DNA of 64,000 nt, taken from positions 3,348,001 to 3,412,000 of the forward strand of contig NZ_VFQE01000001.1 of assembly GCF_006717095.1 (NCBI RefSeq). Direction: 5' to 3'. The translations under genes were made by a program, and so were the position numbers. Under the pieces are notes generated by a model. The model saw only the letters and a program-made list of their open reading frames with translations, searched no databases and was not told the DNA's origin. Shown here one piece after another: positions 21,072-49,117 of this stretch. Each line of letters begins with the position of its first letter. The first letter of the stretch is position 1. This DNA is from Blastococcus colisei (GTDB lineage Bacteria > Actinomycetota > Actinomycetes > Mycobacteriales > Geodermatophilaceae).

Positions 21072-22535
21072 TCAGGCCGGGAGGCCCACCGAGTGGGTGT
21101 CCATGAACTCCCGCAGGCCCTCGATGCCCATCTCGCGGCCGAACCCGCTGTGGTTGAACCCACCGAACGGCGCGCGCTCGTCGAGGAACGCCGCCCCGTG
21201 GCAGTTGACGAACGTGTAACCGGTGCGCAGCCGGGCCCCGATCTCGGCGGCGCGGTCGAGGTCCGCCGTCCACACCGACGAGCACAGGCCCGACCACGTG
21301 TCGTTGGCGCGGACCACGGCGTCCTCGACGTCGTCGAAGGGCAGGATCGGCAGGGTCGGCCCGAACTGCTCCTCGACGACGACCCGGGCGTCGTCGGCCG
21401 GGTCGAGGACCAGCGACGGCGTGAGGAAGTTGCCGACCGAGATGTCGGCTCCGTCGACCGGCTCGCCGAACTCGCGCACCTCGGCACCGGACTCCCGGGC
21501 CTGGGCGAGGAGCTCCTGCACGTACTCCTTCTGCCGCGTCTGGTGCAGCGGGCCCATCGTGACGCCCTCGTCGAGGCCGTGGCCGAGCCGGGTGGCCGAC
21601 AACAGTCCCGACAGCCCGTCCACCACCTCGTCGTACCGGGACCGGTGCACGTACAGCCGCTTGGTGGCCATGCAGATCTGCCCGGTGGAGTCGAACGTGC
21701 CGCCGAACATCTTCTGCATCGCCTCTGCGCTCAGGTCGGCGTCGGGCAGCACGATGGCGGGGTCGTTGCCGCCCAGTTCCAGCGCCACGCGGGTCAGCGA
21801 CCGCGATGCCATCTCCATGATCTTCTTGCCACCGCCGGGGCTGCCGGTGAAGCACACCTTCTTCACCCGGTCGTCCTGGATCAGCGCCGAACCGATCTCG
21901 GCGTCGGCCCCGGTCACGACGTTGAGCACACCGGGCGGCAGCAGCTCGGCCACCTTCTGCACCGTGCGGGTCGTGGCCAGCGGCGTGGTCGGCGGCGGCT
22001 TCACCACCACGGTGTTGCCGGCGACCAGCGCGTACGGCAGGGAGGCCGCCAGGATGGCCATCGGCCAGTTGAACGGCACGATGACGGTGACCACGCCCAG
22101 CGGGAGGTAGGACACCGTCGTGCGGTACGGCGGGGCGGGCAGCGTGACCGACTCCTCGACCCGGTCGGCCAGCCCGACGGCGAGCCGGAAGCGGTGCTCG
22201 AACACGATGGAGTCGATGAAGGACTCCATGCGGATCTTGCCGTTCTCGCGGGTCAGGATCTCCGCGACCGCCGGCCGGTCGGCCTCCAGCGGGGCGAGGG
22301 CGGCGGTGATCAGCTCGGCCCGCTCCTGCGGGGTCCGGGCCGCCCACTCGGGGAAGGCCCGGTGCGCCGCCGCGACGGCCTCCTCGGCCTGCTTGGCGCT
22401 GGCCGCGGCCGCGTAGCCCACCACCGAACGGCCGTCGGCGGGGTCGATCACCTGCAGGTGGTCGTCGGCGCTGCGTACCTCACCGGCGATGAACAGCTCG
22501 GTCCTGATCTCCGGCAGCTGGTCCAGAGACACCAT
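21072..22535 (-). CDS. Aldehyde dehydrogenase in the lig-type catabolic unit
   Basis: A 487-residue NAD(P)-dependent aldehyde dehydrogenase. It has the PFNWPMAI motif, the catalytic-Glu block VALELGGNDPAIVLPDADL, the nucleophilic cysteine in STGQICMATKRLYVH, and a late EEQFGPTLPILPF. GAGGAGAAGACA precedes the ATG at 22535. It is the last gene of the minus-strand unit that encodes LigK, LigU and LigJ homologues. A plausible role is oxidising a ring-cleavage semialdehyde, such as carboxy-hydroxymuconate semialdehyde, or a benzaldehyde such as vanillin. The family is certain and the substrate is inferred from context. Confidence 0.88.
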   Translation of the reverse strand: MVSLDQLPEIRTELFIAGEVRSADDHLQVIDPADGRSVVGYAAAASAKQAEEAVAAAHRAFPEWAARTPQERAELITAALAPLEADRPAVAEILTRENGKIRMESFIDSIVFEHRFRLAVGLADRVEESVTLPAPPYRTTVSYLPLGVVTVIVPFNWPMAILAASLPYALVAGNTVVVKPPPTTPLATTRTVQKVAELLPPGVLNVVTGADAEIGSALIQDDRVKKVCFTGSPGGGKKIMEMASRSLTRVALELGGNDPAIVLPDADLSAEAMQKMFGGTFDSTGQICMATKRLYVHRSRYDEVVDGLSGLLSATRLGHGLDEGVTMGPLHQTRQKEYVQELLAQARESGAEVREFGEPVDGADISVGNFLTPSLVLDPADDARVVVEEQFGPTLPILPFDDVEDAVVRANDTWSGLCSSVWTADLDRAAEIGARLRTGYTFVNCHGAAFLDERAPFGGFNHSGFGREMGIEGLREFMDTHSVGLPA

Positions 22536-22601
22536 TGTCTTCTCCTCGGATAGTGGACGGTGCCTGCGTCTGCAGGCCACGGATGGGGGTGCGGCCGGCG
22601 C

Positions 22602-23237
22602 TCACGGGGAACGCCCCGGGAGCTCCCGCCAGCCGGACGGCGTCACGATGGCGTCGACCGGCCGGTCGTGCGCCTCGGCCGGCAGCTCGTCGACGACCTC
22701 GTCGTCGAAGACCAGCGCGACGAGGACGGCGTCCGGGCGGGCGTGCGGGAGGGCGCGGTCGTAGTAACCGCCGCCCCGGCCCAGCCGGATCCCCGCACGG
22801 TCCACCGCCAGCGCCGGCACGATGACGACGTCGGCGGTCCCGATCGCGGTGGTGTCGAGCCAGGGGCCGTCCGGCTGCAGCAGACCGAAGCGCCCCGGCA
22901 CGAACCGGCCGGTGTGCTCCGCCCAGCCGAGTTCCCGGCCCTGGGCGGGGATGACCGGCAGCAGCACCCGGGCGCCGAGCTCTGCGTAGGCCGCCGGCAA
23001 CCGGCCGTGCCCGGGCTCGGTCGGGTCGGGCACGAAGGCCGCCACGGTGCCGGCACCGGCGAGCCTGCGGACGAGAACGGCGGCGACGGCGGCGGCGGCG
23101 GCGGCGCGCTCGGCCTCCGGCCTGCCGATCCGGCGGGCGAGGAGACGCGCCCGCAGCGCGGCCTTGGCCGCGACGGGGTCACCGGGACCGGTCACCGCGG
23201 AACCCGCATCCGGAGGCCGCCGACCGCGCGGAACCAT
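22602..23237 (-). CDS. 5-formyltetrahydrofolate cyclo-ligase
   Basis: A roughly 211-residue member of the MTHFS family, which converts 5-formyl-THF to 5,10-methenyl-THF with ATP. AAKAALRARLLARR begins the domain; VIVPALAVDRAGIRLGRGGG followed by YYDRAL is the diagnostic substrate/phosphate loop. The ATG at 23237 starts two bases after the LigJ stop, which favours coupling; a GTG at 23195 is an alternative. Its place inside an aromatic catabolic operon fits a need to return stalled formyl-folate to the C1 cycle that serves the O-demethylase. Confidence 0.83.
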   Translation of the reverse strand: MVPRGRRPPDAGSAVTGPGDPVAAKAALRARLLARRIGRPEAERAAAAAAVAAVLVRRLAGAGTVAAFVPDPTEPGHGRLPAAYAELGARVLLPVIPAQGRELGWAEHTGRFVPGRFGLLQPDGPWLDTTAIGTADVVIVPALAVDRAGIRLGRGGGYYDRALPHARPDAVLVALVFDDEVVDELPAEAHDRPVDAIVTPSGWRELPGRSP

Positions 23238-23239
23238 GC

Positions 23240-24268
23240 TCAGGCCCCGGCACCCAGCAGGGCGTCCAGTCGCGGGTAGACCCGCCGGACGTTGCCCTCG
23301 AAGACGGCGGCACGCGCCTCCTCGTCGAGCGCCCCGTTGTCGAATGCAGCCTCGACGTACCGGCGGGTGTCGTCGAAGTGGTGGCCGGTGCGCGGGTCGA
23401 TCCCGCGGACGGCACCCACCATCTCGGAGCCGAAGAGGACGTTCCGGCTGTCGATCACGTCGAGCAGCAGGTCGATGCCCGCCTGGTGGTAGACGCAGGT
23501 GTCGAAGAAGACGTTGCCCATGACGTTGGACTCCACCGGGGGCTGGCCGAGCATGTCGGCCAGTCCCCGGTAGCGGCCCCAGTGGTAGGGCACCGCTCCC
23601 CCGCCGTGCGGGATGACCAGGCGCAGCTCGGGCAGGTCCGCGAACAGCGTGCCCTGGACCAGCTGCATGAACGCGGTCGTGTCGGCGTTGATGTAGTAGG
23701 CGCCCGTCGCGTGGAACACCGGGGTCGCCGAGGCGGAGACGTGGACCATCGCGGGCACGTCCAGCTCGATCATCGCCTCGTAGAAGGCGTACCAGCTCCG
23801 GTCGGTCAGCGGCGGCGACGTCCAGTGACCTCCGCTGGGATCGGGATTGAGATTGCACCCGACGAAGCCCAGCTCCTCCACGCAGCGCCGGAGCTCCTCG
23901 ATCGACGCCCCGACGTCCGCGCCCGGGGACTGCGGCAGCTGGCTGACCCCGACGAACCGGTCGGGGAAGAGCGTGGTGACCCGGTGGACCAGGTCGTTGC
24001 ACCGCCGGGCCCACTCCAGGCTGACGGCGGCGTCTCCGACGTGGTGCGCCATCGCCGAGGCACGCGGCGAGAAGAGGGTGACGTCGATGCCGCGCTCGTC
24101 CATCAGCCTCAGCTGGCTGGTCTCGATGGTCTCGCGGATCTCGTCGTCGCTGATGGCCGGGTAGGCCGGTGGCGTCGTCCCCGCTGTCCAGGCGGCGACC
24201 TGCTGCTCGCGCCACGCGGTGTGCGCCGCCGGAGCGGTGGTGTAGTGCCCGTGACAGTCGATGATCAT
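23240..24268 (-). CDS. ligJ: 4-oxalomesaconate hydratase (LigJ-like amidohydrolase family)
   Basis: A 342-residue amidohydrolase-superfamily enzyme predicted to hydrate 4-oxalomesaconate to 4-carboxy-4-hydroxy-2-oxoadipate. It begins MIIDCHGHYTTAP, and from memory it aligns closely over its full length with Sphingobium LigJ: FSPRASAMAHHVGD, NLNPDPSGGHWTSPPLTDR, IPHGGGAVPYHWGR, FFDTCVYHQAGIDLL and MVGAVRGIDPRTG are all shared landmarks. Its start overlaps the upstream dehydrogenase stop (ATGA). LigK and LigU homologues in the same unit support the assignment. Confidence 0.88.
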   Translation of the reverse strand: MIIDCHGHYTTAPAAHTAWREQQVAAWTAGTTPPAYPAISDDEIRETIETSQLRLMDERGIDVTLFSPRASAMAHHVGDAAVSLEWARRCNDLVHRVTTLFPDRFVGVSQLPQSPGADVGASIEELRRCVEELGFVGCNLNPDPSGGHWTSPPLTDRSWYAFYEAMIELDVPAMVHVSASATPVFHATGAYYINADTTAFMQLVQGTLFADLPELRLVIPHGGGAVPYHWGRYRGLADMLGQPPVESNVMGNVFFDTCVYHQAGIDLLLDVIDSRNVLFGSEMVGAVRGIDPRTGHHFDDTRRYVEAAFDNGALDEEARAAVFEGNVRRVYPRLDALLGAGA

Positions 24269-25077
24269 GGCTGCTCCGTCTCCCCGGCGGCCCCTGGCCG
24301 GTCGACCGGCACGGCGTCGCGCAGCTCCACGAGCAGGTCGCGGGCGGCCGGGGCGATGCGGGCCGGAACCCCCAGCTCCCGTAGCTGCTCGGTGGCGGCG
24401 GCCATCTCGTCCGCCCGCCGCCGGGCATGGGCGTGCGTGCCGTTGACGACGCGGTCGAGGCTCCGCTCGTCGAAGCCGGCCATCTCCGCCGCGATGTTTC
24501 CCCGCAGCCAGTCGGCGCACCCGGCTGCCTCGGCGCCGCGCAGTGCCTCCACCACCGCGGCGGCGAGCCCCTTGTAGAAGACGCTGCGCAGCAGTTTGCG
24601 GGAGATCGCCGTCCCGACCGGCCCTTCCTGGACCACCACGTCGGCACCCAGGCCGGCGAGCAGGTCGCGGAACCGGTCGGCCCCCTCGCCCGAGACGAGC
24701 ATCGGCGTGCGCAGGCCCTTCCCGGGCACCGGCGACATCAGCGCGACGTCGATGACGGGGACGTCACGCGCCGCCGCCCGCTCGCCCAGGGTCACCTTCA
24801 GTCCCGGGCTGGCCGTGTTGAGGTCGGCCCACAGGGTGCCGGCGCGCAGTTCGGGCAGGGCGTTCTCCAGCGCCGTCATCGCGTCGTGGGAGCTGTTGAC
24901 GCTGATCACGACGTCGGCGTCGGCGACCGCCTCGGCCTCGGAGCCGCGCGGCTGCACGCCGTCCACGGTGATGCCCTTGGGGTCGTACCCGCGGACGTCG
25001 GCCCCGGCTGCCACCAGGTCGCGGGCGATCTCCGAGCCGGCCTCACCGAGCCCCAGGACGGCGAACGCGGCGGTCAC
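24265..25077 (-). CDS. NAD(P)-dependent dehydrogenase, 6PGDH-like with DUF1932
   Basis: A 270-residue protein with an N-terminal Rossmann domain (AVLGLGEAGSEIARDLVAAG, then VRGYDPKG) and ADVVISVNSSHDAM, followed by an alpha-helical DUF1932-type C-terminal domain beginning around SRKLLRSVFYKGLAAA. It resembles beta-hydroxyacid dehydrogenases. The GTG at 25077 overlaps the upstream dioxygenase stop (GTGA), and its own stop overlaps the LigJ start. It is not a LigC homologue, which would be a GFO/IDH/MocA protein. It could act on a hydroxy- or oxo-intermediate of the same pathway, but no specific reaction is proven. Confidence 0.72.
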   Translation of the reverse strand: MTAAFAVLGLGEAGSEIARDLVAAGADVRGYDPKGITVDGVQPRGSEAEAVADADVVISVNSSHDAMTALENALPELRAGTLWADLNTASPGLKVTLGERAAARDVPVIDVALMSPVPGKGLRTPMLVSGEGADRFRDLLAGLGADVVVQEGPVGTAISRKLLRSVFYKGLAAAVVEALRGAEAAGCADWLRGNIAAEMAGFDERSLDRVVNGTHAHARRRADEMAAATEQLRELGVPARIAPAARDLLVELRDAVPVDRPGAAGETEQP

Positions 25078-26030
25078 TCCTGGACCTCGACCGGCGGGGT
25101 GCCGTGGGTGTGGAACGTGTCGATGGTCTTCAGCCCCCAGGCCTGGCCCTTGGCGCGCTCGGCCTCGGACCAGTCGATGGGCTGCCAGTCGGGGGCGAGG
25201 ACCAGCCGCGCGGCGGGGTTGTCCAGCTCGATCCGGTTGCCCGCCGGTTCCCAGACGTAGAGGAAGAAGCTCTGCTGGATGGTGTGCTTGTGCGGCCCGG
25301 TCTCGATGTGCACGCCGTGCTCGAGCGCGAGGTCGGCGGCCCGGATGATGTCGTCCCGGCTGTCGACGGCGAACGACAGGTGGTGCAGCCGGCCGGAGGT
25401 GCCGGTCCTGTCCTTGGTCCACACCACGTCGTAGCCCTTGTTGGTGAACGTGGTCCAGGTGCCGGCGACCGTCCCGTCGTCCAGCACGATCTGCTCGGTG
25501 ATCATCGCCCCGAGGGCGTCGACGAAGAAGTCGCGGTTCTCCACCGGGTTCACGCCGAGGTAGTTGATGTGGTCGATCCGCCGCACGCTCACCCCGCGCC
25601 CGGGGTAGGCCTGTGCCTGGTTCTTCAGCGCGGGCTTCAGGTCACCCTCCGGCCGGTACCACTCCGTCTCGTAGTAGACGCCCATCTCGTGGCCGTCGGG
25701 GTCGGTGAAGACGTACACCGGTCCGTAGCCGGGGTCGCCGTCCTGCCAGCCCTTACCGAGCCCGGTCGCCTCGATGGCGGCCACCCGGCGCTGCAGCGCC
25801 TCCGGCGTGCCGGCCCGGAAGTTGGTCCGCCCCACGCCGGGCCGTGCGGCGGCGGTGAGCTTGACGGTCGTGTTCTCGTAGTCGTCCCAGGCGCGCAGGA
25901 ACACCGAGTCGCCGGCCGACCCGTTCTCCGTCATCCCCAGGTACCGGACGAAGAAGTCCAGGCTCTCCTCGGGCTTGTGGGTCAGCAGCTCGACGTGGGC
26001 GAGGTGCGCGATGTCGTGCAGCGGCGGCAC
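25074..26030 (-). CDS. Extradiol (catechol 2,3-type) ring-cleavage dioxygenase, VOC family
   Basis: A 318-residue type I extradiol dioxygenase with two vicinal-oxygen-chelate modules. Iron ligands are predicted at the early His in IAHLAHVELL (residue 12), a second His in SGRLHHLSFAV, and the Glu in PAGNRIELDNPA near the end of module two. Such enzymes open catecholic rings adjacent to the two hydroxyls. It lies between LigU and the DUF1932 dehydrogenase, so it may give the unit a second ring-cleavage activity alongside LigAB. The substrate is unknown. Confidence 0.85.
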   Translation of the reverse strand: MPPLHDIAHLAHVELLTHKPEESLDFFVRYLGMTENGSAGDSVFLRAWDDYENTTVKLTAAARPGVGRTNFRAGTPEALQRRVAAIEATGLGKGWQDGDPGYGPVYVFTDPDGHEMGVYYETEWYRPEGDLKPALKNQAQAYPGRGVSVRRIDHINYLGVNPVENRDFFVDALGAMITEQIVLDDGTVAGTWTTFTNKGYDVVWTKDRTGTSGRLHHLSFAVDSRDDIIRAADLALEHGVHIETGPHKHTIQQSFFLYVWEPAGNRIELDNPAARLVLAPDWQPIDWSEAERAKGQAWGLKTIDTFHTHGTPPVEVQE

Positions 26031-26071
26031 GGGCTCTCCTGGGACTCAGGGGTACACGGGACGGGCAGGGT

Positions 26072-27151
26072 TCAGGCGCGCGGGTACGCGGTGCCGTCGA
26101 AGAGCTTGCGGGCGGTGCGGACGACGCCGGACCGGACGACGCGCGGCGGGGTCGTCGAGCTGTCGACCGCGACGTCGACGAGCAGGTGCCCCGTCGGGTG
26201 CTCGACGTCCACGCGCGAGGTGCCGGCCGGCCAGCCGACGGTGAGCTCGTGGCCGACCGCATCGGGCAGCAGCATCCCGGTGACCACGCTGACGGCGCCC
26301 AGCACGCCGATCGACGTGTGCGGCTGCACCGGGATGAACGACCGCGTGCACACCTGGCCGCCGTCCCGGGCGGGCGCGAGCAGCGCGGTCTTCGGCACGG
26401 AGGCCGACGACACGTCGCCCATGCCCATCAGCTGCGCCGCCTTGCGCCGGAACGCGTCGATGCGCTGCAGCAGCGCGGTGTCGGCGGCGAGCTCCTCGTG
26501 CGACTCGTAGCCGGTCAGCCCGAACGACTCGGCCAGCGCGAGGACGACCGGCATGCCGTTGTCGACGCAGGTCGCCTCGACGCCCTCGACCGTGTCGCGC
26601 ACGTGCCCGGTCGGCAGGAGGCTGCCGGTCGCCGAGCCCTCGGTGTCGGTGAACGCGAGGACCACCGGGGCGGCGGTTCCGGACACGCCCGCGATCGCCA
26701 CGTCGCCGCGGTACTCCACCCGGCCCTCCGGGGTCGAGAAGGTCGCGACGGCGACGCTGCCGGAGTTGACCATGCGGATCCGCACGGCGGTCTCCTCACC
26801 GCCGGCCGGCACCAGCCCGCGCTCGACGGCGAACGGCCCCACTCCCGCGAGGATGTTGCCGCAGTTCTGCCGGTCGCTGACCGTCGCCTCGTCGACCCCC
26901 AGCTGCAGGAACAGGTAGTCGACGTCGACCTCGGGCTCGTCGGACGGCGAGACGACCGCCACCTTGCTGGTCAGCGTCGTCGCACCGCCGAGCCCGTCGA
27001 TCTGCCGCGGGTCCGGCGTGCCCATGAGGCGCAGCAGCAGGTCGTCGCGCTCGGCCGGGTCGGCGGGCAGGTCGTGCGCCTCGACGTACAGGCCGCGGGA
27101 GGTGCCGGCCCGCAGCATCGTGCAGCGGACACCCGTGTCGTCGTACGTCAC
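26072..27151 (-). CDS. ligU: 4-oxalomesaconate tautomerase (PrpF family, LigU/GalD-like)
   Basis: A 359-residue PrpF-fold isomerase. It shows CTMLRAGTSRGLYVEAHDLP at the start, GLGGATTLTSKVAVV, the catalytic-loop cysteine in SDRQNCGNILAGVGPFA, and a late VQPHTSIGVLGAVSVV. PrpF-family proteins isomerise unsaturated tri-acids; the LigU/GalD branch acts on 4-oxalomesaconate. That branch assignment rests on the adjacent LigK and LigJ homologues. The start overlaps the LigK stop (ATGA). Confidence 0.85.
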   Translation of the reverse strand: MTYDDTGVRCTMLRAGTSRGLYVEAHDLPADPAERDDLLLRLMGTPDPRQIDGLGGATTLTSKVAVVSPSDEPEVDVDYLFLQLGVDEATVSDRQNCGNILAGVGPFAVERGLVPAGGEETAVRIRMVNSGSVAVATFSTPEGRVEYRGDVAIAGVSGTAAPVVLAFTDTEGSATGSLLPTGHVRDTVEGVEATCVDNGMPVVLALAESFGLTGYESHEELAADTALLQRIDAFRRKAAQLMGMGDVSSASVPKTALLAPARDGGQVCTRSFIPVQPHTSIGVLGAVSVVTGMLLPDAVGHELTVGWPAGTSRVDVEHPTGHLLVDVAVDSSTTPPRVVRSGVVRTARKLFDGTAYPRA

Positions 27152-27852
27152 GTTCCCTCCTCCGCGTACGTCGAGTAGGGGACGTACTCGATGCCGAAGT
27201 CGCCGAGCCGGTCGCGCAGGCCGTAGCGGTCGAGGCCGAGCTCGCCCTGCTCGAAGGCGGCGCGGCTGGCGGCCTCCTTGTCGATCCGCGCCTGCGAGGC
27301 GGTCAGCGCCCGCGGCACGTCCGACCGCGGCACCACCATCACGCCGTCGTCGTCGGCGACCACGACGTCCCCGGGGCGGATCGTCTGACCGCCGAGCACG
27401 ATCGGCACGTTCACCGCCCCGGCCGTCGCCTTGACCGTCCCCTGCGCGCTCACCGCCCGGGACCAGGCCGGGAAGCCCATCTCCCGCAGCTCCGCGACGT
27501 CGCGCACCCCGCAGCCGAGGACCACCCCACGCACCCCGCGCTGCGCCAGCGCGGTGGCGAACAGCTCGCCCAGCAGCCCGTCGGTGGACGGCGAGTTGGT
27601 CGCGACGACGAGCACGTCACCGGGCCGGCACTGCTCCACGGCCACGTGGATCATCAGGTTGTCGCCCGGCCAGCACAGCACCGTGACGGCGGTCCCGCCG
27701 ATCCGGGCCCCTGCCCAGGCGGGCCGGAAGTCCGGGCCCAGGTAGCCGACCCGGCCCAGCGCCTCGTGCACGGTGGCGACGCCGAACCCGCCGAGCTGCT
27801 CGGCGTCCCCCGCGTCGGCGCGCGGCGGATCGGTGACGACGACGGTTTTCAT
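27148..27852 (-). CDS. ligK: 4-carboxy-4-hydroxy-2-oxoadipate aldolase/oxaloacetate decarboxylase (LigK-like)
   Basis: A 234-residue class II (metal-dependent) aldolase of the HMG/CHA-aldolase and RraA fold. The substrate/metal region reads GDVLVVATNSPSTDGLLGEL, then RGVRGVVLGCGVRDVAELR and PGDVVVADDDGVMVVPR, as in LigK/GalC. It should split 4-carboxy-4-hydroxy-2-oxoadipate into pyruvate and oxaloacetate and end the pathway. It starts in ATGA overlap with the GntR stop and overlaps LigU at its own end, so it is tightly coupled to both. Confidence 0.87.
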   Translation of the reverse strand: MKTVVVTDPPRADAGDAEQLGGFGVATVHEALGRVGYLGPDFRPAWAGARIGGTAVTVLCWPGDNLMIHVAVEQCRPGDVLVVATNSPSTDGLLGELFATALAQRGVRGVVLGCGVRDVAELREMGFPAWSRAVSAQGTVKATAGAVNVPIVLGGQTIRPGDVVVADDDGVMVVPRSDVPRALTASQARIDKEAASRAAFEQGELGLDRYGLRDRLGDFGIEYVPYSTYAEEGT

Positions 27853-28520
27853 GCGGGATCTCCGGTCTGCTGGGCGGGGTCGGTCAGCGCGTCGATGATG
27901 CTGCGGACGTGGGCGACGGCGGCCGCCTCGGCCCGGTCGGGGTCGCGGTCGGTGACGGCGTCCACCAGGGCGGTCAGCTCCGCCAGGCTCACCCGGGGCC
28001 GCCCGGGCCGCAGCGAGAGCCGGAACTGGTGGCGCACCAGCTGGGCCTGCAGCCGCCCGACGAGCCCCGCGGCGATGGGATGGCGCGCGGCGTCGTGGAC
28101 CATGCCGTGCAGCTGCTGGATCAGGTCCGAGTACTTGAGCAGGTCGCCGGAGTCGACCCGGTCCACCATCGCGTGCAGATGGGTGCGCAGGCGGGCGATC
28201 TCGGCATCGGTGACGCGCTCGGCGGCCTTGCGGGCCAGGAGGCCCTCCAGCGGCATCCGGCACTCCGTGATCGCGACCGCCTCCTCGGTGGACACGACCC
28301 GGACCCGCGCCCCCCGGTGCGGGATCCGCTCGACCAGACCTTCGGCGATCAGCGCGTCGATGGCCGCACGCACGCTGCTGCGGTTCACGCCGACCAGCTC
28401 GGTGAGGTCGGCCTCGACCAGGCGGTACCCCGGCAGCAGATCGCCCCGGGAGATGGCCGCGCGGAGCGCCTGTTCGGCGGCGTGGCGTTCCGCTGCGCCC
28501 ACCAGGCCCCCTCTGCTCAT
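27849..28520 (-). CDS. GntR-family regulator (FCD domain)
   Basis: A 223-residue FadR-type regulator. The winged helix-turn-helix spans about residues 10-75 (LPGYRLVEADLTELVGVNRS, then AIDALIAEGLVERIPHRGARV). The C-terminal FCD ligand domain includes RMPLEGLLARKAAERV and a metal-type histidine pattern around LHGMVHDAARH and HQFRLSLRPGR. It is the second gene of the catabolic unit, overlapping LigK, so it probably senses a pathway intermediate and controls this unit and possibly the divergent LigM unit. Confidence 0.85.
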   Translation of the reverse strand: MSRGGLVGAAERHAAEQALRAAISRGDLLPGYRLVEADLTELVGVNRSSVRAAIDALIAEGLVERIPHRGARVRVVSTEEAVAITECRMPLEGLLARKAAERVTDAEIARLRTHLHAMVDRVDSGDLLKYSDLIQQLHGMVHDAARHPIAAGLVGRLQAQLVRHQFRLSLRPGRPRVSLAELTALVDAVTDRDPDRAEAAAVAHVRSIIDALTDPAQQTGDPA

Positions 28521-28563
28521 CGGTCCGGCCGATGGCGACGCTAGGAGCGTGTCAGCAGGATTG

Positions 28564-40192: not shown

Positions 40193-40193
40193 G

Positions 40194-41157: not shown

Positions 41158-41457
41158 TCACAGGTCGAGGACCAGCCGTCCGGTCCGGGCTCGGGAGACG
41201 CAGATCATCATCGTGTCCCCGAGAGCCCGCTCCTCGGCGGTGAGCACGCCGTCCCGGTGGTCCGGGTGCCCCTCCAGGACCCTCGTCTCGCAGATTCCGC
41301 ACCGGCCCTCGGCGCAGGCGGGCGGGACCTCGAGCCCGGCGTCCCGCACGGCCTCGAGGATGGACGTCTCCGGCGGGACGACAAGGGTGAACCCTGCGGT
41401 GGCACAGACGACCTGGACCGGCGCCGCAGGCTGTTCGGGCGCGGGGACGACGCTCAC
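41158..41457 (-). CDS. Stand-alone [2Fe-2S] plant-type ferredoxin
   Basis: A 99-residue ferredoxin. The cluster ligands are three closely spaced cysteines in PPACAEGRCGICETRV plus the Cys in DTMMICVSRART. It closely resembles the C-terminal domain of the phthalate/vanillate-type oxygenase reductase encoded at 52900-53991, including the identical terminal RLVLDL, but lacks the flavin and NAD domains. GGGAGGTACGCC precedes the GTG at 41457. It would need a separate reductase and a partner oxygenase; none lies next to it. Confidence 0.82.
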   Translation of the reverse strand: MSVVPAPEQPAAPVQVVCATAGFTLVVPPETSILEAVRDAGLEVPPACAEGRCGICETRVLEGHPDHRDGVLTAEERALGDTMMICVSRARTGRLVLDL

Positions 41458-41610: not shown

Positions 41611-42276
41611 TCAGCGCGGCCGGACCAGCCCTTCCTTCACGGCCAGCAGGGCCGCCTGCGTCCGGGAGCTGAGACCCATCTTGGTGAGCAGGTGGCTCAC
41701 GTGGGTCCGGGCCGTCCGCTCGCTGATGAACAGGTGAGCGGCGATGTCCTTGTTCGACTTCCCCTCGGCCACCAGGACGAGGACGTCCCGCTCCCGGGCG
41801 GTGAGCACCCCCAGCCCCGTGCGGGGCGCCCGGATCTCCTGGGTCAGGCGGCGGGTGACGGCAGCGTCCAGGAACACCTCGTCGCGCACCGCTGCCCGCA
41901 GCGCCTCCTCGACCTCCGCGGGACTGGCGTCCTTGAGCAGGTACCCGGAGGCGCCCTGCTCGAGGGCGGCGTGCACCCGCTCGATCTCCCCGAAGCTGGT
42001 CAGGATCACCACCTTGACGTCCGGGAACCGGCGCACGATCTCCCCGGTCGCCTCGACGCCGTCCATCCCCGGCATCTGCAGGTCCATGAGGACGACGTCG
42101 GGCAGCGCACCGTGCGCGGCCGAGCGCGCGAGGCTGTCCAGCGCCTCGCCGCCGTGCCCTGCCTCGCCCGTCACCACGACGTCCTCGAGCGCCTCCAGGT
42201 AGGCCACCACGCCGCGGCGCACGACCGCGTGGTCGTCCACCACGAGCACCGTGATCTGGGGCGAGGGCGCGCTCAC
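41611..42276 (-). CDS. NarL/LuxR-family response regulator
   Basis: A 221-residue two-domain regulator. The receiver domain has the acidic pocket VLVVDDHAVVRRG, the phospho-acceptor Asp in DVVLMDLQMPGMDG, and the conserved Lys in GYLLKDAS. The C-terminal LuxR-type HTH spans LTARERDVLVLVAEGKSNKD and SERTARTHVSHLLTKM. The GTG start overlaps the histidine kinase stop (GTGA), so they form a cognate pair. Its targets may include adjacent aromatic genes. Confidence 0.9.
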   Translation of the reverse strand: MSAPSPQITVLVVDDHAVVRRGVVAYLEALEDVVVTGEAGHGGEALDSLARSAAHGALPDVVLMDLQMPGMDGVEATGEIVRRFPDVKVVILTSFGEIERVHAALEQGASGYLLKDASPAEVEEALRAAVRDEVFLDAAVTRRLTQEIRAPRTGLGVLTARERDVLVLVAEGKSNKDIAAHLFISERTARTHVSHLLTKMGLSSRTQAALLAVKEGLVRPR

Positions 42277-44066
42277 GGCGCTCCCGTCGCGGGCGGGATC
42301 GGATCCGCCGGCAACGAGGTGACCAGCGGCAGGGTCAGGCGCACGCACGTGCCGCCACCGGAGACCTCGTGCACCCGCACCACCCCTCCCCAGCGAGCTG
42401 CCCGCTCGCGCATCACGGTCATGCCGAACCCGCTCGACGGGGTCCGGTCCTCCTGGTCGGCGTCGGCCCGGGCGCCGATTCCACGACCGTCGTCGGTGAC
42501 GTCGGCCACCAGGCGTCGCCGGCGGCCGTGGGACGTGACCGCGAGCCGGACGCGGACGGAGGTGCCCCCCGCGTGCTTGACGCTGTTGTGCACCGCCTCG
42601 GCGACGATGCGGTAGACGTCCTCGACCAGGTCGACGTCGAGCGCATCGAGCTCGGCCCCGGGGTCGGCGACGTCCAGGTCCACCTGGAGCCCGGCTCTCG
42701 CGACCGTGGTGTCCACCAGCGAGCGCAGGGCCGAGACCAGCCCCCGCCCCGCCGTGGTCGCCGGCCGCAGTTCGACCACCATGCCGCGCAGATCGGCGAG
42801 GACGTCCTCGGCGGTGCTGCTCAGGTCGTCGGCGACCTGGGCCACCTTCTCGGGCGCCGGCTGGAGGCCGCGGCCCACGAGCACGCCCAGGGATCGCGCC
42901 TGCATCATCATCGAGAAGACCTGCTGGACGACGGAGTCGTGCAGGTCCCGAGCCAGTTTCTGCCGCTCCTCACGCCGGACCAGATCCCGCTCGCGCTCCA
43001 GGAGCTCGGCATGGTCGACGGCCATCGCGGCCTGCTCGGCCATCGCCAGGAGGAACTCCAGTTCGGTCTCCCCCACCGTCTGCCCTGGGGCGAAGAAGGC
43101 GTTCAGGATGCCCACCGGTTCGCCCCTGGCGAGGAGGGGAACGCTGGCGAACCAGTCCCACCGCGGCTGCCGCATGAGCTCCCGCAACGGCTCCCACGCC
43201 GGGTCGGTCATGGTCTGCTGGTACCGGTTCGGCACGACCATGGGCTCACGCTTCTCGAGCGCCTCGAGCATGATCAGCCGGGCGCCCCGGGCACGACACT
43301 CCATGAGCTTGTCGAAGAACTCGCTGGACCGGAACCCGGACGCCCCCATGACGTGCAGCCGGTTGCCCGCCGAGTTGACCGTCAGGACCTGCACGCCGGC
43401 CAGCGCGTCGGTGCGGGCCACCTCCTGCGCGAGCGCCTCGAGCGTCCCGACGAGGGACCGCTTCGACGCCACGCTCGACGCCGCCTTCGCGATCGCGGCC
43501 AGCCGCCGCTGCTGCAGCCGGCTCACGGTCACGTCCCGGAAGGAGACCACCCAGCGGGGCCGGCCCGGCACCTGGTTGAGCACGTAGGCGAACTCACGCC
43601 TCGTGCCCGGGGCCGCCGTCCACTCGACCGTGAGGTCTCCGGACCTCGAGGTGGTCCCCGGCTCCTCCGGCGCGGGGAACGGGGACCTGGCGCCTGCCAC
43701 GGCGCCGGGAGCCAGACCGCACAACTGCACGGCAGCGGGGTTCGCCTCGACGAAGCGACCGTCGGCGTCGATGACCGCCAGCCCGTCCGGGGCGTGCTCC
43801 ACGACGTCCTCGGATGCGGTGTCGGTGATGGCGGTGTCGGTGATGGCGGTGTCCGTCATGGCGGTGTCGCTGATGGCGACGGAGCCCGGGACGGCTCGCC
43901 GATCGGCATCCACGTCGTCCCCCTTCCTGGGCGCCTCCGGGACCGGCTCGTGGTGGCGCGGGTCACCTAGGACGATCGTGACACTCGACGGCCCCGGACC
44001 CGAAGCGGAACGCCCACCGTCGCCGGAGCCAACCATGCCGCCCCGTCGCAGGTCGATCCCACTCAC
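42273..44066 (-). CDS. PAS-GAF sensor histidine kinase (NarX/DesK type)
   Basis: A 597-residue kinase if started at GTG 44066 (ATG 44036 is possible). After a low-complexity N-terminus come a PAS domain ([20 protein letters not shown], about residue 90), a GAF domain (about residues 190-340), the HisKA_3 phosphorylation helix [18 protein letters not shown], and a HATPase with [21 protein letters not shown] and VTDDGRGIG. No membrane segment is evident, so it senses a cytoplasmic signal. A 15-bp tandem repeat lies ahead of the PAS domain. Confidence 0.85.
43816..43875. repeat. Four 15-bp tandem repeats inside the kinase gene
   Basis: Four consecutive copies of GCGGTGTCGGTGATG-like units (43816-43830, 43831-43845, 43846-43860, 43861-43875) are present. 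The first two are identical and the last two differ at one or two bases. They encode repeated DTA(I/M)T-like pentapeptides and keep the frame, so copy-number change would lengthen or shorten the linker without inactivating the kinase. Confidence 0.85.
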
Positions 44067-44096: not shown

Positions 44097-45176
44097 TCAG
44101 CCCATCGAGACGACCACCTTGAGCCGCTCCCCCGGCGAGCGGAAGGCGAGGTCGTAGGCCTGCTGCACCTCGGCCACCGGGAACCGGTGGGTGACGAGGA
44201 CGTCGACCAGGTCGGGGTGCCGGGCGAGGTGGTCGTGGGCGTCGGCGAGCAACCGCCGCCGATCCATTGCACCGCCCGACATCAGGGTGAGGTTCTTGCG
44301 GATCATGGCTTCCATGTCGAGCGGGTAGACCGGGTCGTCGGGAACACCGAAGTAGAAGATCTGCCCGCCGTCGGCCACGGCGTCGAGGGCGTGCTGCAAC
44401 GTGGACGTCTGGTGCCCCACGGCCTCGACCACGACGTCCGGTCGCTCGTCCTCGGCCAGGCCGCTCGACCACTCACCGCTCGCCGCCCACACGAACCGGT
44501 CCGCCCCCACCTGCCTGGCCGCCGTCGACCGGTCGACCCGGTCCACCGACGTGACCGAGCGAGCGCCCCACGACCGCAGGACGTGGGTGAAGAGCAGCCC
44601 GATGGCGCCCTGACCGATCACGGCGCAGTTCCGGCCGGTGAGGTCGCCGAGCCGCTCGACCGAGGAGAGCACGCACGCCAGGGGCTGGACCAGGACCTCC
44701 TCCTCGGGCGGCAGCCGCCCGGTGTACGGCCACACGCCCCGCGAGTCCGTGACCACGTACTCGGCGACGGCGTCGAAGGAGCTGGCCCAGCCGACGACCA
44801 TCTGCCCGGGAGCGAGGTCCGGGTCGCTGGTGGCGACGACCTCCCCGACCACCTCGTGCATGGGGAACCCGGGGGCCGCTCCCGCCGAGCCAGGTGCCGA
44901 CCACCGGTTGGGCGCGCCGAGGAAGAAGGGGCCGTCGCTGCCGCAGATCCCACCGGCGACCACGCGGAGCAGCACCTCGGCCTCGCCCAGCCGTCCGGAG
45001 GAGGGGCGCGGGACGTCGATCCGGTGGAACCGTCCCGGGCCCGCCAGCGCGTACGCCCACATGCTCATCTCCGCGTCCGGGGCGTCCGGCCGCACCCCTC
45101 CGGCCACCGGCCTGCTCCCCCGTGGGCCTCCCCCCGGCGGCACCGCATCCGGCGGATCGCTCGGGAACTCGTGCAC
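44097..45176 (-). CDS. Medium-chain zinc-type dehydrogenase
   Basis: A 359-residue MDR-superfamily oxidoreductase. The catalytic zinc region [13 protein letters not shown] is followed by [16 protein letters not shown], the Rossmann glycine motif [13 protein letters not shown], and [14 protein letters not shown]. The structural four-cysteine zinc lobe seems absent. About 36 poorly conserved residues precede the domain, so a start at the internal ATG of [10 protein letters not shown] is possible; GTG 45176 has GAGAGGAGAC upstream. It is divergent from the C1-folate genes, which suggests an alcohol or aldehyde linked to lignin monomers. Confidence 0.8.
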
Positions 45177-45558: not shown

Positions 45559-46422
45559 GTGAACCGCGCCATCACCGTCCGCGAGCCCGCGGCCCGCGCT
45601 TCCCTGAAGAAGGCATTCGAGACCCTCGGCTACGAGGTGATCCCGTTCAAGAAGACCGAGCAGGCGGTGCTGCAGCACGTGCCGAAGGACGTACGGCTGA
45701 CCGTCACCGCGTCCGCGGCCAAGGGCCAGGACGTCACCATCGACCTCACCGTCGCGCTCGTCGGGCACGGTTACACGGTGGCCCCGCACCTCTCGGCCCA
45801 GCAGATCCGCGACCGCGCCCACCTCGCCGAGATCGTGGCCCGCTGCCGCGAGGCCGGCGTCACCGAGGTGTTCGTCGTCGGTGGCGACCCGACCGACATC
45901 CCCACCGAATTCAGGCACGCGCACGACGTGCTCGTGGCGCTGCACGAGATGGATCACGGCTTCACCGACATCGGCATCGCCGGCCACCCGGAGGGGCACC
46001 CCTCCGCGTCGGAGGACGTGCTGTTCCAGGCGCTGAAGGACAAGGCCCCGCTGGCCACCCACATCAAGACCCAGATGGTGTTCGACCCGAAGGTGATCCT
46101 GGACTGGGCGCGGGAGCTGCACCGCCGCGGCATCGACCTCCCGGTCCACATCGGCGTGCCCGGGGCGGTCCACCGCCAGAAGCTGCTGCGCGTCTCCAGC
46201 GGACTGGGCATCGGCGAGTCGGCGAAGTTCCTGAAGAAGCAGCAGACACTGCTCTGGCGGTTCTTCCTCCCCGGGGGCTACAACCCTGCCAAGATCATCA
46301 AGGGACTGGCGCCGCACATGGGTCAGCCGGACAACACCATCGCCGGTTTTCACGTCTTCACGTTCAACGATCTGGAGCCCACCGAGGAGTGGCGGAAGAA
46401 GACGTTGCAGAGTCTCTCCTGA
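45559..46422 (+). CDS. 5,10-methylenetetrahydrofolate reductase-like protein
   Basis: A 287-residue TIM-barrel protein of the MetF family. [55 protein letters not shown] and [16 protein letters not shown] are the FAD/folate-binding landmarks. In this setting it probably runs in the oxidative direction, turning the 5-methyl-THF made by LigM into methylene-THF. The GTG at 45559 follows GAGAGAAGG. It begins a run of folate genes ending at 49117. Confidence 0.85.
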
Positions 46423-46472: not shown

Positions 46473-47387
46473 ATGACCTCAGCAGCCCCGACCACCTCCA
46501 CCCTGCCCCGCTCCCCGCACGCCGGGAAGGAGGACGTCGACCACGGCCGCCTGCTCGTGCAGTGCCCCGACAAGCCCGGGATCGTCGCCGCGGTCAGCAC
46601 GTTCCTCACCAAGGCGGGCGCGAACATCGTCACGCTCGACCAGCACTCCACCGCGGAGGAGGGGGGCTCCTTCTTCCAGCGCACCGAGTTCCATCTGGCG
46701 GGACTGCCCGCGGCACGCGACGAGCTGGAGCGCGGCTTCGCCATCGAGGTCGCGGAACAGTTCGGGATGGAGTTCCGGTTCAGCGAGGCGGCCAAGCCCA
46801 AGCGGGTCGCGATCCTCGCGTCCAAGGCCGACCACTGCCTGCTCGACCTGCTGTGGCGCGACCGCCGGGGCGAGCTGGACATGCAGGTCGCGATGGTCAT
46901 CTCCAACCACCCCGACCTGGCCGATCAGGTCCGCCCGTTCGGCGTGCCGTACTTCCACGTCCCGGCCACCCGCGCCAACCGGGCGGAGGCCGAGCAGCGG
47001 ATCCTCGACCTGCTGCGCGGCAACGTCGATCTCGTCGTCCTGGCCCGGTACATGCAGATCATCACGCCCGGGTTCCTGACCGAGGTCGGCGCCCCGCTGA
47101 TCAACATCCACCACTCGTTCCTGCCCGCCTTCATCGGCGCCGGCCCCTACCAGAAGGCCAAGGACCGGGGCGTGAAGCTGATCGGGGCGACGGCGCACTA
47201 CGTGACCGCGGACCTGGACGAGGGACCGATCATCGAGCAGGACGTCGTCCGGGTCGACCACCGGCACAGCGCCGGCGACCTGGTCCGCCTCGGCGCCGAC
47301 GTCGAGCGGGCGGTGCTGTCCCGGGCCGTGCGGTGGCACCTCGAGGACCGGGTCGCCCGGCACGGCAACACCACGATCGTCTTCTGA
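46473..47387 (+). CDS. purU: Formyltetrahydrofolate deformylase (PurU), copy in the C1 unit
   Basis: A 304-residue PurU paralogue. The ACT domain reads [19 protein letters not shown]; the catalytic domain has [16 protein letters not shown], the Asn/His site [17 protein letters not shown] and [19 protein letters not shown]. It is clearly related to, but diverged from, the copy at 37735-38607. It would hydrolyse 10-formyl-THF and so close the oxidative C1 cycle. It stands between the MTHFR-like gene and folD, 10 bp before folD. Confidence 0.89.
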
Positions 47388-47397: not shown

Positions 47398-48258
47398 ATG
47401 ACAGCACAGGTGATCGATGGCAAGGCGGTCGCGCGGCAGGTGCGCGAGGACGTGGCGAAGGGCGTCGAGCAACTGGTCGCCGGGGGCGGAACCGCGCCCG
47501 GGCTCGCCACGGTGCTCATCGGCGACGACCCCGCGTCCGAGGTCTACGTCCGGAACAAGCGCAGGTCCTGCGTCGCGGCGGGCATGCAGGACCTGCACCG
47601 GCACCTGCCCGGGGACGTCGGACAGGCGGAGGCCGCCGCGCTGATCGACGAGCTCGCCGCCGACCCGGCCGTGTCCGGCATCCTGCTCCAGCTGCCCACG
47701 CCGGCACACCTGGACTCCGAGTCGCTGCTCGCCCGCATCCCGGCCGAGAAGGACGTCGACGGGCTGACCACGGCCAACGCCGGTCTCCTGGCGCAGGGCC
47801 GGTCCGGGCTGCGGCCGTGCACCCCCTCCGGCGTCATGGCCCTGCTGGACCAGTACGACGTCCCCCTCCAGGGGGTCGAGGCCGTCGTCGTCGGCCGGTC
47901 CGTCCTCGTCGGCAAGCCCATGGCGCAGCTGCTGCTGGAGCGCCATGCCACGGTGACCATCTGCCACTCCCGCACCCGCGACCTCGCCGAGGTGTGCCGT
48001 CGCGCCGATGTGCTCGTCGTCGCAGCCGGCATCCCGGGGCTGGTCGGGCCGGACGCGGTCAAGCCCGGGGCCACCGTCATCGACGTCGGCATCCACCGCG
48101 GCGAGGAAGGCCTGCACGGCGACGTCGACACCGCGGCCGTCGCGGAGGTCGCCGGCCTGGTCACCCCCGTGCCCGGGGGCGTCGGGCCCATGACGATCGC
48201 CATGCTGCTGGCGAACACGCTGATCGCGGCCAAGGCACAGCAGGGCCGCAGCGACTGA
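47398..48258 (+). CDS. folD: Bifunctional methylene-THF dehydrogenase/methenyl-THF cyclohydrolase (FolD)
   Basis: A 286-residue FolD. The catalytic-Lys region is EVYVRNKRRSC, the folate-site block is GILLQLPTPAHLD, then PAEKDVDGLTTANAGLL, the NADP-binding VVVGRSVLVGKPMAQLLLE, and the signature VTPVPGGVGPMTIAML. It oxidises 5,10-methylene-THF to 10-formyl-THF. The ATG at 47398 follows GAGGAGCATGCG and lies 10 bp after purU. It is probably a second, pathway-dedicated FolD rather than the housekeeping one. Confidence 0.92.
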   Translation: MTAQVIDGKAVARQVREDVAKGVEQLVAGGGTAPGLATVLIGDDPASEVYVRNKRRSCVAAGMQDLHRHLPGDVGQAEAAALIDELAADPAVSGILLQLPTPAHLDSESLLARIPAEKDVDGLTTANAGLLAQGRSGLRPCTPSGVMALLDQYDVPLQGVEAVVVGRSVLVGKPMAQLLLERHATVTICHSRTRDLAEVCRRADVLVVAAGIPGLVGPDAVKPGATVIDVGIHRGEEGLHGDVDTAAVAEVAGLVTPVPGGVGPMTIAMLLANTLIAAKAQQGRSD

Positions 48259-48260
48259 TG

Positions 48261-48315
48261 GCCCCGCCCCGGGCCCGAGCTGGGGCGGGGCGGGCCGGGC
48301 CGGGCCGGGCCGGGC
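48261..48315. terminator. GC hairpin followed by GGGCC repeats
   Basis: GCCCCGCCCC (48261-48270) and GGGGCGGGGC (48282-48291) pair over 10 bp around an 11-base loop just after the folD stop. About four tandem GGGCC units follow. This may terminate or attenuate before the cyclodeaminase gene. Confidence 0.5.
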
Positions 48316-48460
48316 GGCTGAGCATGCCTCGGCCCCGGGGAGGCGTCGCCGGCTCCGAGTGGCCGGACCGGCGCGGGAGACCGACGATCACATCTCCGCA
48401 GGCCCGACCGGCGCCCGTCGGCGCCTTCCCCAGCCGTGCCCCTACCCCCGCATCGAGGCC

Positions 48461-49117
48461 ATGGACGCGAACGCCACGACAGCAGAGTCCCCGACCGCCG
48501 ACGAGCTCGACGGCCAGTCGCTCGGTGAGTTCCTCGGCCAGCTGGCCGCCCGCATGGCCGCTCCTGGCGCCGGCGCCACGGCGGGGATCGAGGCCGCGCT
48601 GTCCGCCTCTCTCATCGCGATGGTCGGTCGCTTCACCACCGACGAGGAGCACGCCGACGTGGTGCGCGAGATCGTCGCGGACGCCGATGCCCAGCGTGAC
48701 GCCTGCCTGGAGGGCGCTGCCGAGGACCAGCAGGCGTTCTCCGCGGTGGCCGAGGCGATGAAGCTGCCCAGGGAGTCCGAGGAGCAGCAGGAGTCCCGCC
48801 GCCGCGCCCTCAGCGCGGCACAGCTGGACGCGGCCCAGCCGCCGCGGAAGATCATCGAGTCGGCCGTGCAGCTGGCGTCGCTGGCCGAACGGCTGCTGCC
48901 GATCGCCAACCGCAATCTCATCAGCGATGTCGCCGCAGCCGTCGCGGCTGCCCGCGCCGCTGCCTCGACGGCGCGGCTCGCCGTCGAGACGAACCTCGCC
49001 GGCATCGACGACCAGAACGCCTACGCCGAGCTGAGCGCCGCCGTCGCGGTGGTCGACGACCTGGCTCGGCGGGCCGACGCCGTGGAGGCGGAGGTCCGCG
49101 ACCTCATCCGCCGCTGA
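48461..49117 (+). CDS. Formiminotransferase-cyclodeaminase-like (FTCD_C) protein
   Basis: A 218-residue helical protein of the cyclodeaminase/methenyl-THF cyclohydrolase (FchA-like) family. SLGEFLGQLAARMAAPGAGA is the usual N-terminal helix and glycine turn, and an AAEDQQAFSAVAEAMKLPRE segment follows. It could open methenyl-THF to 10-formyl-THF, which would reinforce the oxidative C1 flux. The ATG at 48461 sits 202 bp after folD, beyond a hairpin, and converges on the flavin monooxygenase. Confidence 0.82.
   Translation: MDANATTAESPTADELDGQSLGEFLGQLAARMAAPGAGATAGIEAALSASLIAMVGRFTTDEEHADVVREIVADADAQRDACLEGAAEDQQAFSAVAEAMKLPRESEEQQESRRRALSAAQLDAAQPPRKIIESAVQLASLAERLLPIANRNLISDVAAAVAAARAAASTARLAVETNLAGIDDQNAYAELSAAVAVVDDLARRADAVEAEVRDLIRR

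Follow-up and report, generated by a model that had tools for sequence, protein, structure and literature searches.

The DNA analysed here (the window) is a stretch of 64,000 nucleotides from the Blastococcus colisei genome (5.16 Mb in four contigs; positions 3,348,001 to 3,412,000 of contig NZ_VFQE01000001.1). At about 21 to 49 kb it carries a catabolic region made up of several gene runs. A minus-strand run encodes LigK, LigU, an extradiol dioxygenase of the VOC superfamily, a DUF1932 dehydrogenase, LigJ, 5-formyltetrahydrofolate cyclo-ligase (5-FCL) and an aldehyde dehydrogenase (ALDH), with gaps of −4 to 41 bp, and a plus-strand run encodes an NMT1-type ABC transporter, a thiamine diphosphate (ThDP)-dependent enzyme and LigM. 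A second minus-strand run carries the genes of a zinc alcohol dehydrogenase, a histidine kinase, a response regulator, a ferredoxin, an alpha/beta hydrolase, a muconolactone-isomerase-like protein, LigA, LigB and PurU, and a second plus-strand run those of a methylenetetrahydrofolate reductase (MTHFR), PurU, FolD and FchA. The region is probably a module for the catabolism of O-methylated hydroxybenzoates with two parallel ring openings that lead to oxalomesaconate. The gene set appears to be a variant of known methoxyaromatic catabolism, and its new element is a predicted VOC-type gallate dioxygenase. The features are as follows (THF, tetrahydrofolate; CHA, 4-carboxy-4-hydroxy-2-oxoadipate; CHMOD, 4-carboxy-2-hydroxy-6-methoxy-6-oxohexa-2,4-dienoate).

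21072-22580, minus: aldehyde dehydrogenase (PF00171, 434 bits; the best 25 of 43 NCBIfam matches all below their cut-offs)
22602-23237, minus: 5-FCL (PF01812, 111 bits; 2 bp from LigJ; start chosen manually)
23240-24268, minus: LigJ, 4-oxalomesaconate hydratase of the amidohydrolase family (555 bits, 8e-166, against solved 6dxq; no match among the NCBIfam models)
24265-25077, minus: NAD-binding_2 and DUF1932 dehydrogenase (PF03446, PF09130)
25074-26030, minus: VOC-superfamily (type I) extradiol dioxygenase, predicted gallate dioxygenase (TIGR03211, 302 bits, cut-off 320.2)
26072-27151, minus: LigU, 4-oxalomesaconate tautomerase (NF033377, 491 bits, cut-off 440)
27148-27852, minus: LigK, CHA aldolase/oxaloacetate decarboxylase (NF006731, 315 bits, cut-off 179; TIGR02798, 282.5 bits, below its cut-off of 304.5)
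28564-29847, minus: MFS transporter, probable uptake (PF07690)
30249-31193 and 31190-31975, plus: NMT1-type ABC permeases (PF00528 twice; starts chosen manually)
31996-32778, plus: NMT1-type ABC ATPase (PF00005; start chosen manually)
32824-33849, plus: NMT1-type ABC binding protein (PF09084; start chosen manually)
33929-35608, plus: ThDP-dependent enzyme, just 5' of LigM (PF02776/PF00205/PF02775)
35700-37106, plus: LigM, by homology a THF-dependent vanillate/3-O-methylgallate O-demethylase (NF047885, 875 bits, cut-off 580)
37735-38607, minus: PurU copy 1, 10-formyl-THF deformylase (TIGR00655, 318.7 bits, cut-off 286)
38640-39497, minus: LigB-type catalytic subunit, type II extradiol dioxygenase (308 bits against LigB 1b4u)
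39490-39891, minus: LigA-type small subunit (TIGR02792, 119.9 bits, cut-off 108.6)
39914-40192, minus: muconolactone-isomerase-family protein, predicted CHMA/oxalomesaconate tautomerase (PF02426, 107 bits)
40194-41093, start probably about 40931, minus: alpha/beta hydrolase, predicted CHMOD methylesterase, MgaC-like (PF12697)
41158-41457, minus: 2Fe-2S ferredoxin (PF00111)
41611-42348, minus: LuxR-type response regulator
42273-44066, minus: PAS-GAF histidine kinase
44097-45176, minus: zinc alcohol dehydrogenase, substrate perhaps methanol or formaldehyde (PF00107/PF08240)
45559-46422, plus: divergent MTHFR-like protein, predicted 5-methyl-THF oxidation (PF02219, 50 bits; weak equivalog, 64 bits, cut-off 294)
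46473-47387, plus: PurU copy 2 (TIGR00655, 397.9 bits, cut-off 286)
47398-48258, plus: FolD (PF02882, 217 bits)
48359-49117, plus: FTCD_C/FchA-like putative methenyl-THF cyclohydrolase (PF04961, 139 bits; NF045657, 93 bits, cut-off 275)

The LigM of the window shares 317 of 463 residues with LigM of SYK-6 and aligned over its full length with the solved SYK-6 enzyme (5tl4, 730 bits). The long form of its open reading frame (ORF) begins at 35577, and the alignment with the LigM model begins at residue 49 of the ORF. The scores with the models of DesA (597 bits, cut-off 800), GcvT (87, cut-off 300) and dimethylsulfoniopropionate (DMSP) demethylase (40, cut-off 410) all stayed below their cut-offs. 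A tree of 76 rows included the LigM of 26 chosen loci, 40 paralogs (40-49% identity, at least 380 residues), SYK-6 LigM, two plasmid LigMs and one GcvT. The 40 paralogs formed one side of a branch with an SH-aLRT support of 100, and SYK-6 LigM fell on the side of the window; the root was not trusted because the GcvT outgroup sat on a very long branch. The nearest relatives of the window LigM were those of Geodermatophilaceae. By homology, there is strong support for the window protein as a true LigM, and its demethylating activity is predicted.

At least 584 LigM relatives were present on GTDB contigs. The best 80, which were 68-88% identical in their best segment and actinobacterial by title, supplied the locus counts given below. 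The loci were taken as fetched (63 of at least 20 kb); because several Geodermatophilaceae loci stop short of the LigU-VOC or LigB genes or end inside them, truncation accounts in part for the classes "LigAB only" and "VOC only". Since the rows share kinship, the association counts are non-independent tests, and p-values overstate them. In the family of the window, LigM was found at E ≤1e-100 in 31 of 112 genomes, and its cut-off was passed by 11 of 396 genomes sampled across Actinomycetota; LigM is therefore patchy in the phylum and frequent in some families. Published work describes a LigM-type gene in a metagenome-assembled genome of Micromonosporaceae and DesA-like genes in Solirubrobacterales (PMC9296663), and predicts complete syringate routes for some Actinomycetes (PMC12314914).

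The two PurU copies are 48.6% identical to one another. The MTHFR-like protein found its best solved relative in 7xg9 (100 bits, residues 13-278 of 287). MTHFR accompanied LigM in 35 of the 80 loci, FolD in 22 and a PurU in 29, and a FchA-like copy (at least 40% identity) in three. MTHFR of the window type and FolD were each found in none of the 30 VOC-only loci within the fetched flanks, and another MTHFR-type gene (cluster 35) occurred in seven Micrococcales loci, some of them VOC-only. A response regulator lay near LigM in 32 of the 80 loci, a histidine kinase in 28 and a copy of the MFS transporter (at least 40% identity) in nine. An earlier note on this DNA had listed LigM-, LigA-, LigB-, LigU-, LigJ- and LigK-like genes, a C1 set (MTHFR-like, FolD, FTCD-like, two PurU and 5-FCL) and two transporters. 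Each Lig class was recovered with profile support at or near the place given, the C1 genes were all found (the MTHFR-like one with a weak score), and the transporters correspond to the MFS gene and one NMT1-type ABC set. The recurrence of many of these genes near LigM in other actinobacteria shows that their grouping goes beyond chance, and a linked C1-oxidation gene set is supported. Folate-dependent O-demethylation, which the note would have given up had the protein sided with GcvT or DMSP demethylases, also holds in view of the model scores above.

Two observations on C1 genes were made at other LigM loci. L106 (Rhodococcus opacus DSM 44186 plasmid, 1-19134) contains, besides a LigM module, folP, pabB, fdhD and genes of the Mur-ligase and formate dehydrogenase types, a set that looks as if it provided the module with its own folate and oxidised the formate. 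In 14 LigM loci, mostly of Microbacterium, there is a gene of the MetE C-terminal (Meth_synt_2) type (plus strand, 5110-6222 in L072), which perhaps routes 5-methyl-THF directly to methionine.

The VOC dioxygenase, the muconolactone-isomerase-family protein, the alpha/beta hydrolase, the DUF1932 dehydrogenase and the two-component system do not appear in the earlier note. The VOC protein did not reach the cut-off of the catechol 2,3-dioxygenase model, and a Microbacterium relative scored 292.5 bits. A tree of 47 rows was built, in which a group of 42 (the window, 35 loci and six plasmid rows) formed one side of a branch with a support of 84/85, recovered in 86% of the bootstrap trees; all 35 locus rows, L053 and L059 included, were counted as oxalomesaconate context. 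H154 and E268 of the 2-His-1-Glu site were conserved in 42 of the 42 rows and H217 in 41, and we take these three residues to be the metal ligands. Tyr at position 200 (window numbering) was present in all 42 rows, where four canonical rows have His and 9wgj has Tyr, and Arg at position 275 was likewise invariant in the group, with Tyr in all five other rows. At the former site, homoprotocatechuate and catechol 2,3-dioxygenases have their second-sphere acid/base His, and the carboxylate of homoprotocatechuate is bound by Arg residues close to the C-terminal lid. The Arg marks of the VOC group may therefore fit a carboxylated substrate.

A VOC relative was present in 35 of the 80 LigM loci. In 33 of these 35, LigU shared the strand of the VOC gene and was at most 2 kb away (67 bp at the median); of the 45 loci without VOC, four had a LigU. 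The other two were from Microbacterium: L053 (VOC gene at 8908-9846) and the short L059 (2860-3798) have the VOC gene beside LigM, with neither LigU nor LigK in the fetched stretch. As the hydratase, LigJ was found in five of the 80 loci and a PIG-L (GalB-type) protein in 36, never both. The DUF1932 dehydrogenase occurred in 19 of the 35 VOC loci, within 2 kb in four. A LigB-type (PF02900) gene was missing from 16 of 22 Micrococcales genomes searched; none was found in 15 of the 20 with a VOC-LigM locus, which are drafts whose completeness is not given and in which no search for other VOC dioxygenases was made. The VOC protein is the best candidate for ring opening in these 15 genomes.

As a control, plasmid relatives were read in 11 chosen records of the 287 with a VOC match (10 outside Actinomycetota and one actinobacterial, R. 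pyridinivorans, 38%); L115 was unannotated and was read by tblastn. All seven relatives at 54.8-62.9% identity (Agrobacterium, two Rhizobium, Thioclava, Thermus oshimai, Methylobacterium and Roseomonas) lie with LigK, six with PIG-L or LigJ and four with LigU, and a DUF1932 match was present in six, the seventh having been read with a shorter flank. On the Roseomonas plasmid, LigK is known from the annotation only, and the amidohydrolase is unlike LigJ. In contrast, LigK, LigU, LigJ and PIG-L were found beside none of the four relatives at 44.6% identity or less. The gene order on Agrobacterium pAt is PIG-L, VOC, LigK, LigU and a gene annotated as of the tannase/feruloyl-esterase family, and LigM-MTHFR-PurU is encoded on the same conjugative A. 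tumefaciens plasmid, from a walnut isolate (L102, L114). The product of a tannase would be gallate. This pAt gene matched only once among the 80 actinobacterial loci (31%, L021). From this context, the VOC protein is predicted to be a type I gallate dioxygenase that converts gallate to oxalomesaconate. No VOC-type or actinobacterial gallate dioxygenase is described in the literature searched, a search that left most subscription journals outside, and none of the VOC type in the searched part of the literature on gallate catabolism by walnut-associated Agrobacterium.

It is possible, though unlikely, that the substrate of the VOC enzyme is 3-O-methylgallate or protocatechuate and not gallate, since the opened product of either could enter the lower pathway given an esterase or a dehydrogenase. 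However, the hydrolase/isomerase pair was present in only three of the 30 VOC-only loci, all of Blastococcus and cut near LigAB, no convincing LigI was detected in the six Micrococcales genomes searched, and the lone tannase/feruloyl-esterase-family neighbour would yield gallate if it is a tannase. Somewhat less likely still is an ordinary catechol 2,3-dioxygenase acting on catechol or a methoxycatechol by-product and sharing the operon by coincidence. The TIGR03211 score of 302 bits and the many records annotated in this way speak for it. On the other hand, neither dmpG nor an acetaldehyde dehydrogenase turned up among the scanned ORFs of the window, whereas both lie beside three of the four distant plasmid relatives, and the linkage to LigK (often also to LigU) extends across Actinomycetota, Alphaproteobacteria and one Thermus plasmid.

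The presence of LigM, LigA, LigB, LigU, LigJ and LigK would also suit a route in which LigM makes protocatechuate from vanillate, and LigAB and the classical 4,5-cleavage enzymes (LigC, LigI, LigU, LigJ and LigK) degrade it; moreover, the window LigB is closer to protocatechuate 4,5-dioxygenase than to gallate dioxygenase (308 bits against LigB 1b4u, 261 against 3wku). LigI and LigC-type queries were taken from an Arthrobacter plasmid operon. The former scored 356 bits against a solved PDC (2-pyrone-4,6-dicarboxylate) hydrolase, 4d8l, and the latter is a Gfo/Idh protein called LigC from its place in the operon alone, with no curated model naming it. LigI had no match in the B. colisei genome (737 bits on its own plasmid) and only three matches, of at most 29.5 bits, in 16 other genomes. 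The LigC-type query gave weak partial Gfo/Idh matches (at best 53 bits in the B. colisei genome and 75 elsewhere, compared with 693 on its own plasmid). PcaH and PcaG, both over their cut-offs, are encoded elsewhere in the genome, where a 4,5-DOPA dioxygenase is the only PF02900 protein besides LigB. The ortho route is therefore the most likely fate of protocatechuate, and the compounds served by the Lig lower pathway would be gallate and 3-O-methylgallate, from which oxalomesaconate is reached without LigC and LigI. This lower pathway is complete, with LigU and LigK over their cut-offs and LigJ matching 6dxq. Classical protocatechuate 4,5-cleavage, which we consider improbable, was rejected for want of LigI and of a convincing LigC.

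The LigB, LigA, PF02426 and hydrolase genes form one run (38640-41093) with gaps of −8, 22 and 1 bp. The PF02426 gene was found in 25 of the 32 LigB loci (20 within 2 kb) versus five of the 48 without LigB, four of which end close behind that gene. The hydrolase and its R. opacus counterpart next to LigAB share 67.5% identity. On an R. opacus plasmid, a stretch of 33 kb bears the LigAB, hydrolase and PF02426 genes together with FolD, PurU, MTHFR, a LigM paralog, pabB, folP, a formate dehydrogenase-type gene and fdhD; no LigU was annotated or detected in this stretch, which suggests that the PF02426 protein can perform the tautomerase step alone. In Pseudomonas sp. NGC7, MgaAB opens 3-O-methylgallate to CHMOD, the methyl ester is hydrolysed by MgaC (an alpha/beta hydrolase), and the SnoaL-like MgaD is proposed as the CHMA tautomerase (PMC12314914). 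This three-part logic would fit the LigAB run with an unrelated isomerase, and LigAB is predicted to be a dioxygenase of 3-O-methylgallate and perhaps also of gallate. That the PF02426 protein and the hydrolase are instead the CatC/PcaD pair of the catechol ortho route, as their family names would have it, is very improbable and was rejected, because both equivalogs were missed (80 against 130.6 bits for muconolactone isomerase and 22 against 256 for PcaD), the PF02426 protein is the sole match to its family in the genome, and the pair adjoins LigB (within 2 kb in 20 of the 32 LigB loci) and LigAB on the R. opacus plasmid. A small ORF beside an intradiol dioxygenase elsewhere in the genome, a CatC candidate by its place, has no similarity to the window PF02426 protein and no NCBIfam match at 1e-20, and so cannot serve as a control.

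In the proposed pathway, LigM would transfer the methyl group of vanillate or 3-O-methylgallate onto THF, a step for which homology is strong. On the basis of the protein families and their linkage, the divergent MTHFR, FolD (assisted by the FchA-like protein) and PurU would then oxidise 5-methyl-THF to formate and regenerate THF. Protocatechuate derived from vanillate would exit through the chromosomal PcaGH ortho route, whose genes are present. By analogy with MgaAB, MgaC and MgaD, LigAB would open 3-O-methylgallate to CHMOD, a methyl ester from which the alpha/beta hydrolase would free methanol, and the muconolactone-isomerase-like protein would tautomerise CHMA. In the new step, the VOC enzyme is predicted to open the gallate that LigM produces, giving oxalomesaconate directly; LigU, LigJ and LigK would then take this to pyruvate and oxaloacetate. 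More generally, we lean towards the view that gallate dioxygenases have evolved a second time, independently, in a mis-annotated and widespread VOC (type I) clade that feeds the oxalomesaconate pathway in Actinomycetota, in Alphaproteobacteria and in one Thermus or more, with Tyr for the second-sphere His and, close to the metal-binding Glu, an invariant Arg perhaps holding the carboxylate, and that the PF02426 protein replaces LigU/MgaD as the tautomerase in LigAB-bearing actinobacteria.

The B. colisei genome contains no second LigM/DesA gene, whereas a DesA-like paralog (43-49% identity) is present in 29 of the 30 other LigM-bearing genomes of the family; four such paralogs from relatives scored 485-578 bits, also under the DesA cut-off of 800. 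No DesA remnant was found between LigM and PurU copy 1. Vanillate, 3-O-methylgallate and gallate may thus be usable, whereas syringate may be out of reach if neither the Rieske protein (58662-59951) nor some other enzyme starts its degradation. As for a Rieske demethylase as the source of 3-O-methylgallate, Roseomonas VanA matched only the LigXa_C-type Rieske protein of the window (26% over 143 residues). Nine other Rieske-domain places exist in the genome, one of which (L097) is closest to a phenylpropionate dioxygenase model. The pathway outlined in the earlier note consequently stands in part: its demethylation and C1 set are retained, and three points are not. LigM is not rare in this branch of the actinobacteria (31 of 112 family genomes, and the published case in PMC9296663), protocatechuate 4,5-cleavage is not supported, with no LigI match, only weak LigC-type matches and PcaGH present, and the module is not self-contained for syringate.

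The Rieske gene belongs to a minus-strand set at 52900-59951, comprising the LigXa_C-type Rieske oxygenase, an NMT1 binding protein, a permease, a zinc alcohol dehydrogenase and a ferredoxin reductase, with an IclR gene adjoining. This set is methoxyaromatic-looking, and its GC3 of about 0.78-0.87 is below that of most of the LigM region. A DDE_5 transposase gene (61181-62668, plus strand) at the right edge of the window adjoins the stretch of lower GC3.

Several points weigh against the proposed pathway and the gallate assignment. Catechol 2,3-dioxygenase is still the best curated model for the VOC protein, just under the cut-off, and the solved structure nearest to it, 9wgj, bears the name "catechol 1,2-dioxygenase". 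The tree support of the VOC group is moderate (84/85), two of its 35 loci (L053 and L059) are without LigU and LigK, LigU accompanies just four of the seven close plasmid relatives, and the tannase neighbour is known from one operon. The closest relative of the window LigB is a protocatechuate enzyme, and the MTHFR-like and FchA-like proteins fall far below the equivalog cut-offs. In addition, a genome without a DesA-like gene has no evident source of 3-O-methylgallate, and the ThDP enzyme, the DUF1932 protein and ALDH fit no assigned step.

Sphingobium sp. SYK-6 (LigM/DesA-MetF-LigH) and Novosphingobium aromaticivorans (LigM/DesA) share with the window a true LigM, THF dependence and linked oxidation of methyl-THF, as well as the LigU, LigJ and LigK lower pathway (in part from PMC9296663 and PMC8091115). 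SYK-6 differs in its formate-THF ligase LigH, where the window has PurU with release of formate. Compared with both strains, no LigI was found in B. colisei, a DesA-like gene is lacking, and there are two unlike ring openers. The syringate pathway of NGC7 (VanA1B1, MgaAB, MgaC, MgaD and GalDBC; PMC12314914) is similar in its LigAB-like dioxygenase, alpha/beta hydrolase and isomerase and in having the oxalomesaconate pathway downstream with no PDC hydrolase. It differs in its VanAB demethylation in place of LigM and in the SnoaL-like MgaD in place of a PF02426 isomerase, a comparison of family descriptions and not of sequences. The predicted reaction of the VOC protein is that of DesB and GalA, type II gallate dioxygenases of the unrelated LigB family. 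Its family and metal ligands, on the other hand, are those of catechol 2,3- and homoprotocatechuate 2,3-dioxygenases, VOC enzymes from which it differs by Tyr200 and Arg275 (His and Tyr in the canonical enzymes) and by operon context. Among actinobacteria, the plasmid-borne 4,5-cleavage operon of Arthrobacter sp. J3.37 and the protocatechuate 4,5-cleavage of Pseudarthrobacter phenanthrenivorans Sphe3 (PMC8431788) likewise combine a LigB-family enzyme with a LigK lower pathway; J3.37 differs in that its fused LigAB has LigI and a LigC-type (Gfo/Idh) gene as neighbours, unlike the window.

If the assignment is true, a bacterial route for S-type lignin monomers and tannin-derived gallate has been masked by the names "catechol 2,3-dioxygenase" and "glycine cleavage T-protein", and surveys based on LigAB or DesB would therefore miss a share of the actinobacteria and rhizobia that degrade gallate and syringate. 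The VOC protein would also be a new ring-cleaving enzyme for lignin funnelling, one that bypasses PDC and CHMS (4-carboxy-2-hydroxymuconate-6-semialdehyde), and its clade would be a natural experiment in the replacement of a catalytic His by Tyr in extradiol dioxygenases.

With regard to the remaining genes of the region, the best solved relatives of the ThDP enzyme are BbmA, acetolactate synthase and 2-hydroxyacyl-CoA lyase, and it is also benzaldehyde-lyase-like; a copy of at least 40% identity was found in one of the 80 LigM loci (L028). Of the ABC transporter, the ATPase alone has a copy at that identity, also in one locus. A scan of 21000-40999 for promoters and terminators gave zero promoter-like sites and one terminator-like site, below the shuffled mean. 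To the left of the region, a single minus-strand ORF (17795-19720) joins a pyridine nucleotide-disulphide oxidoreductase domain to a C-terminal methyltransferase domain, and a plus-strand row at 14065-17742 carries periplasmic binding protein, amino acid permease and acetamidase/formamidase genes, which makes the use of amides possible.

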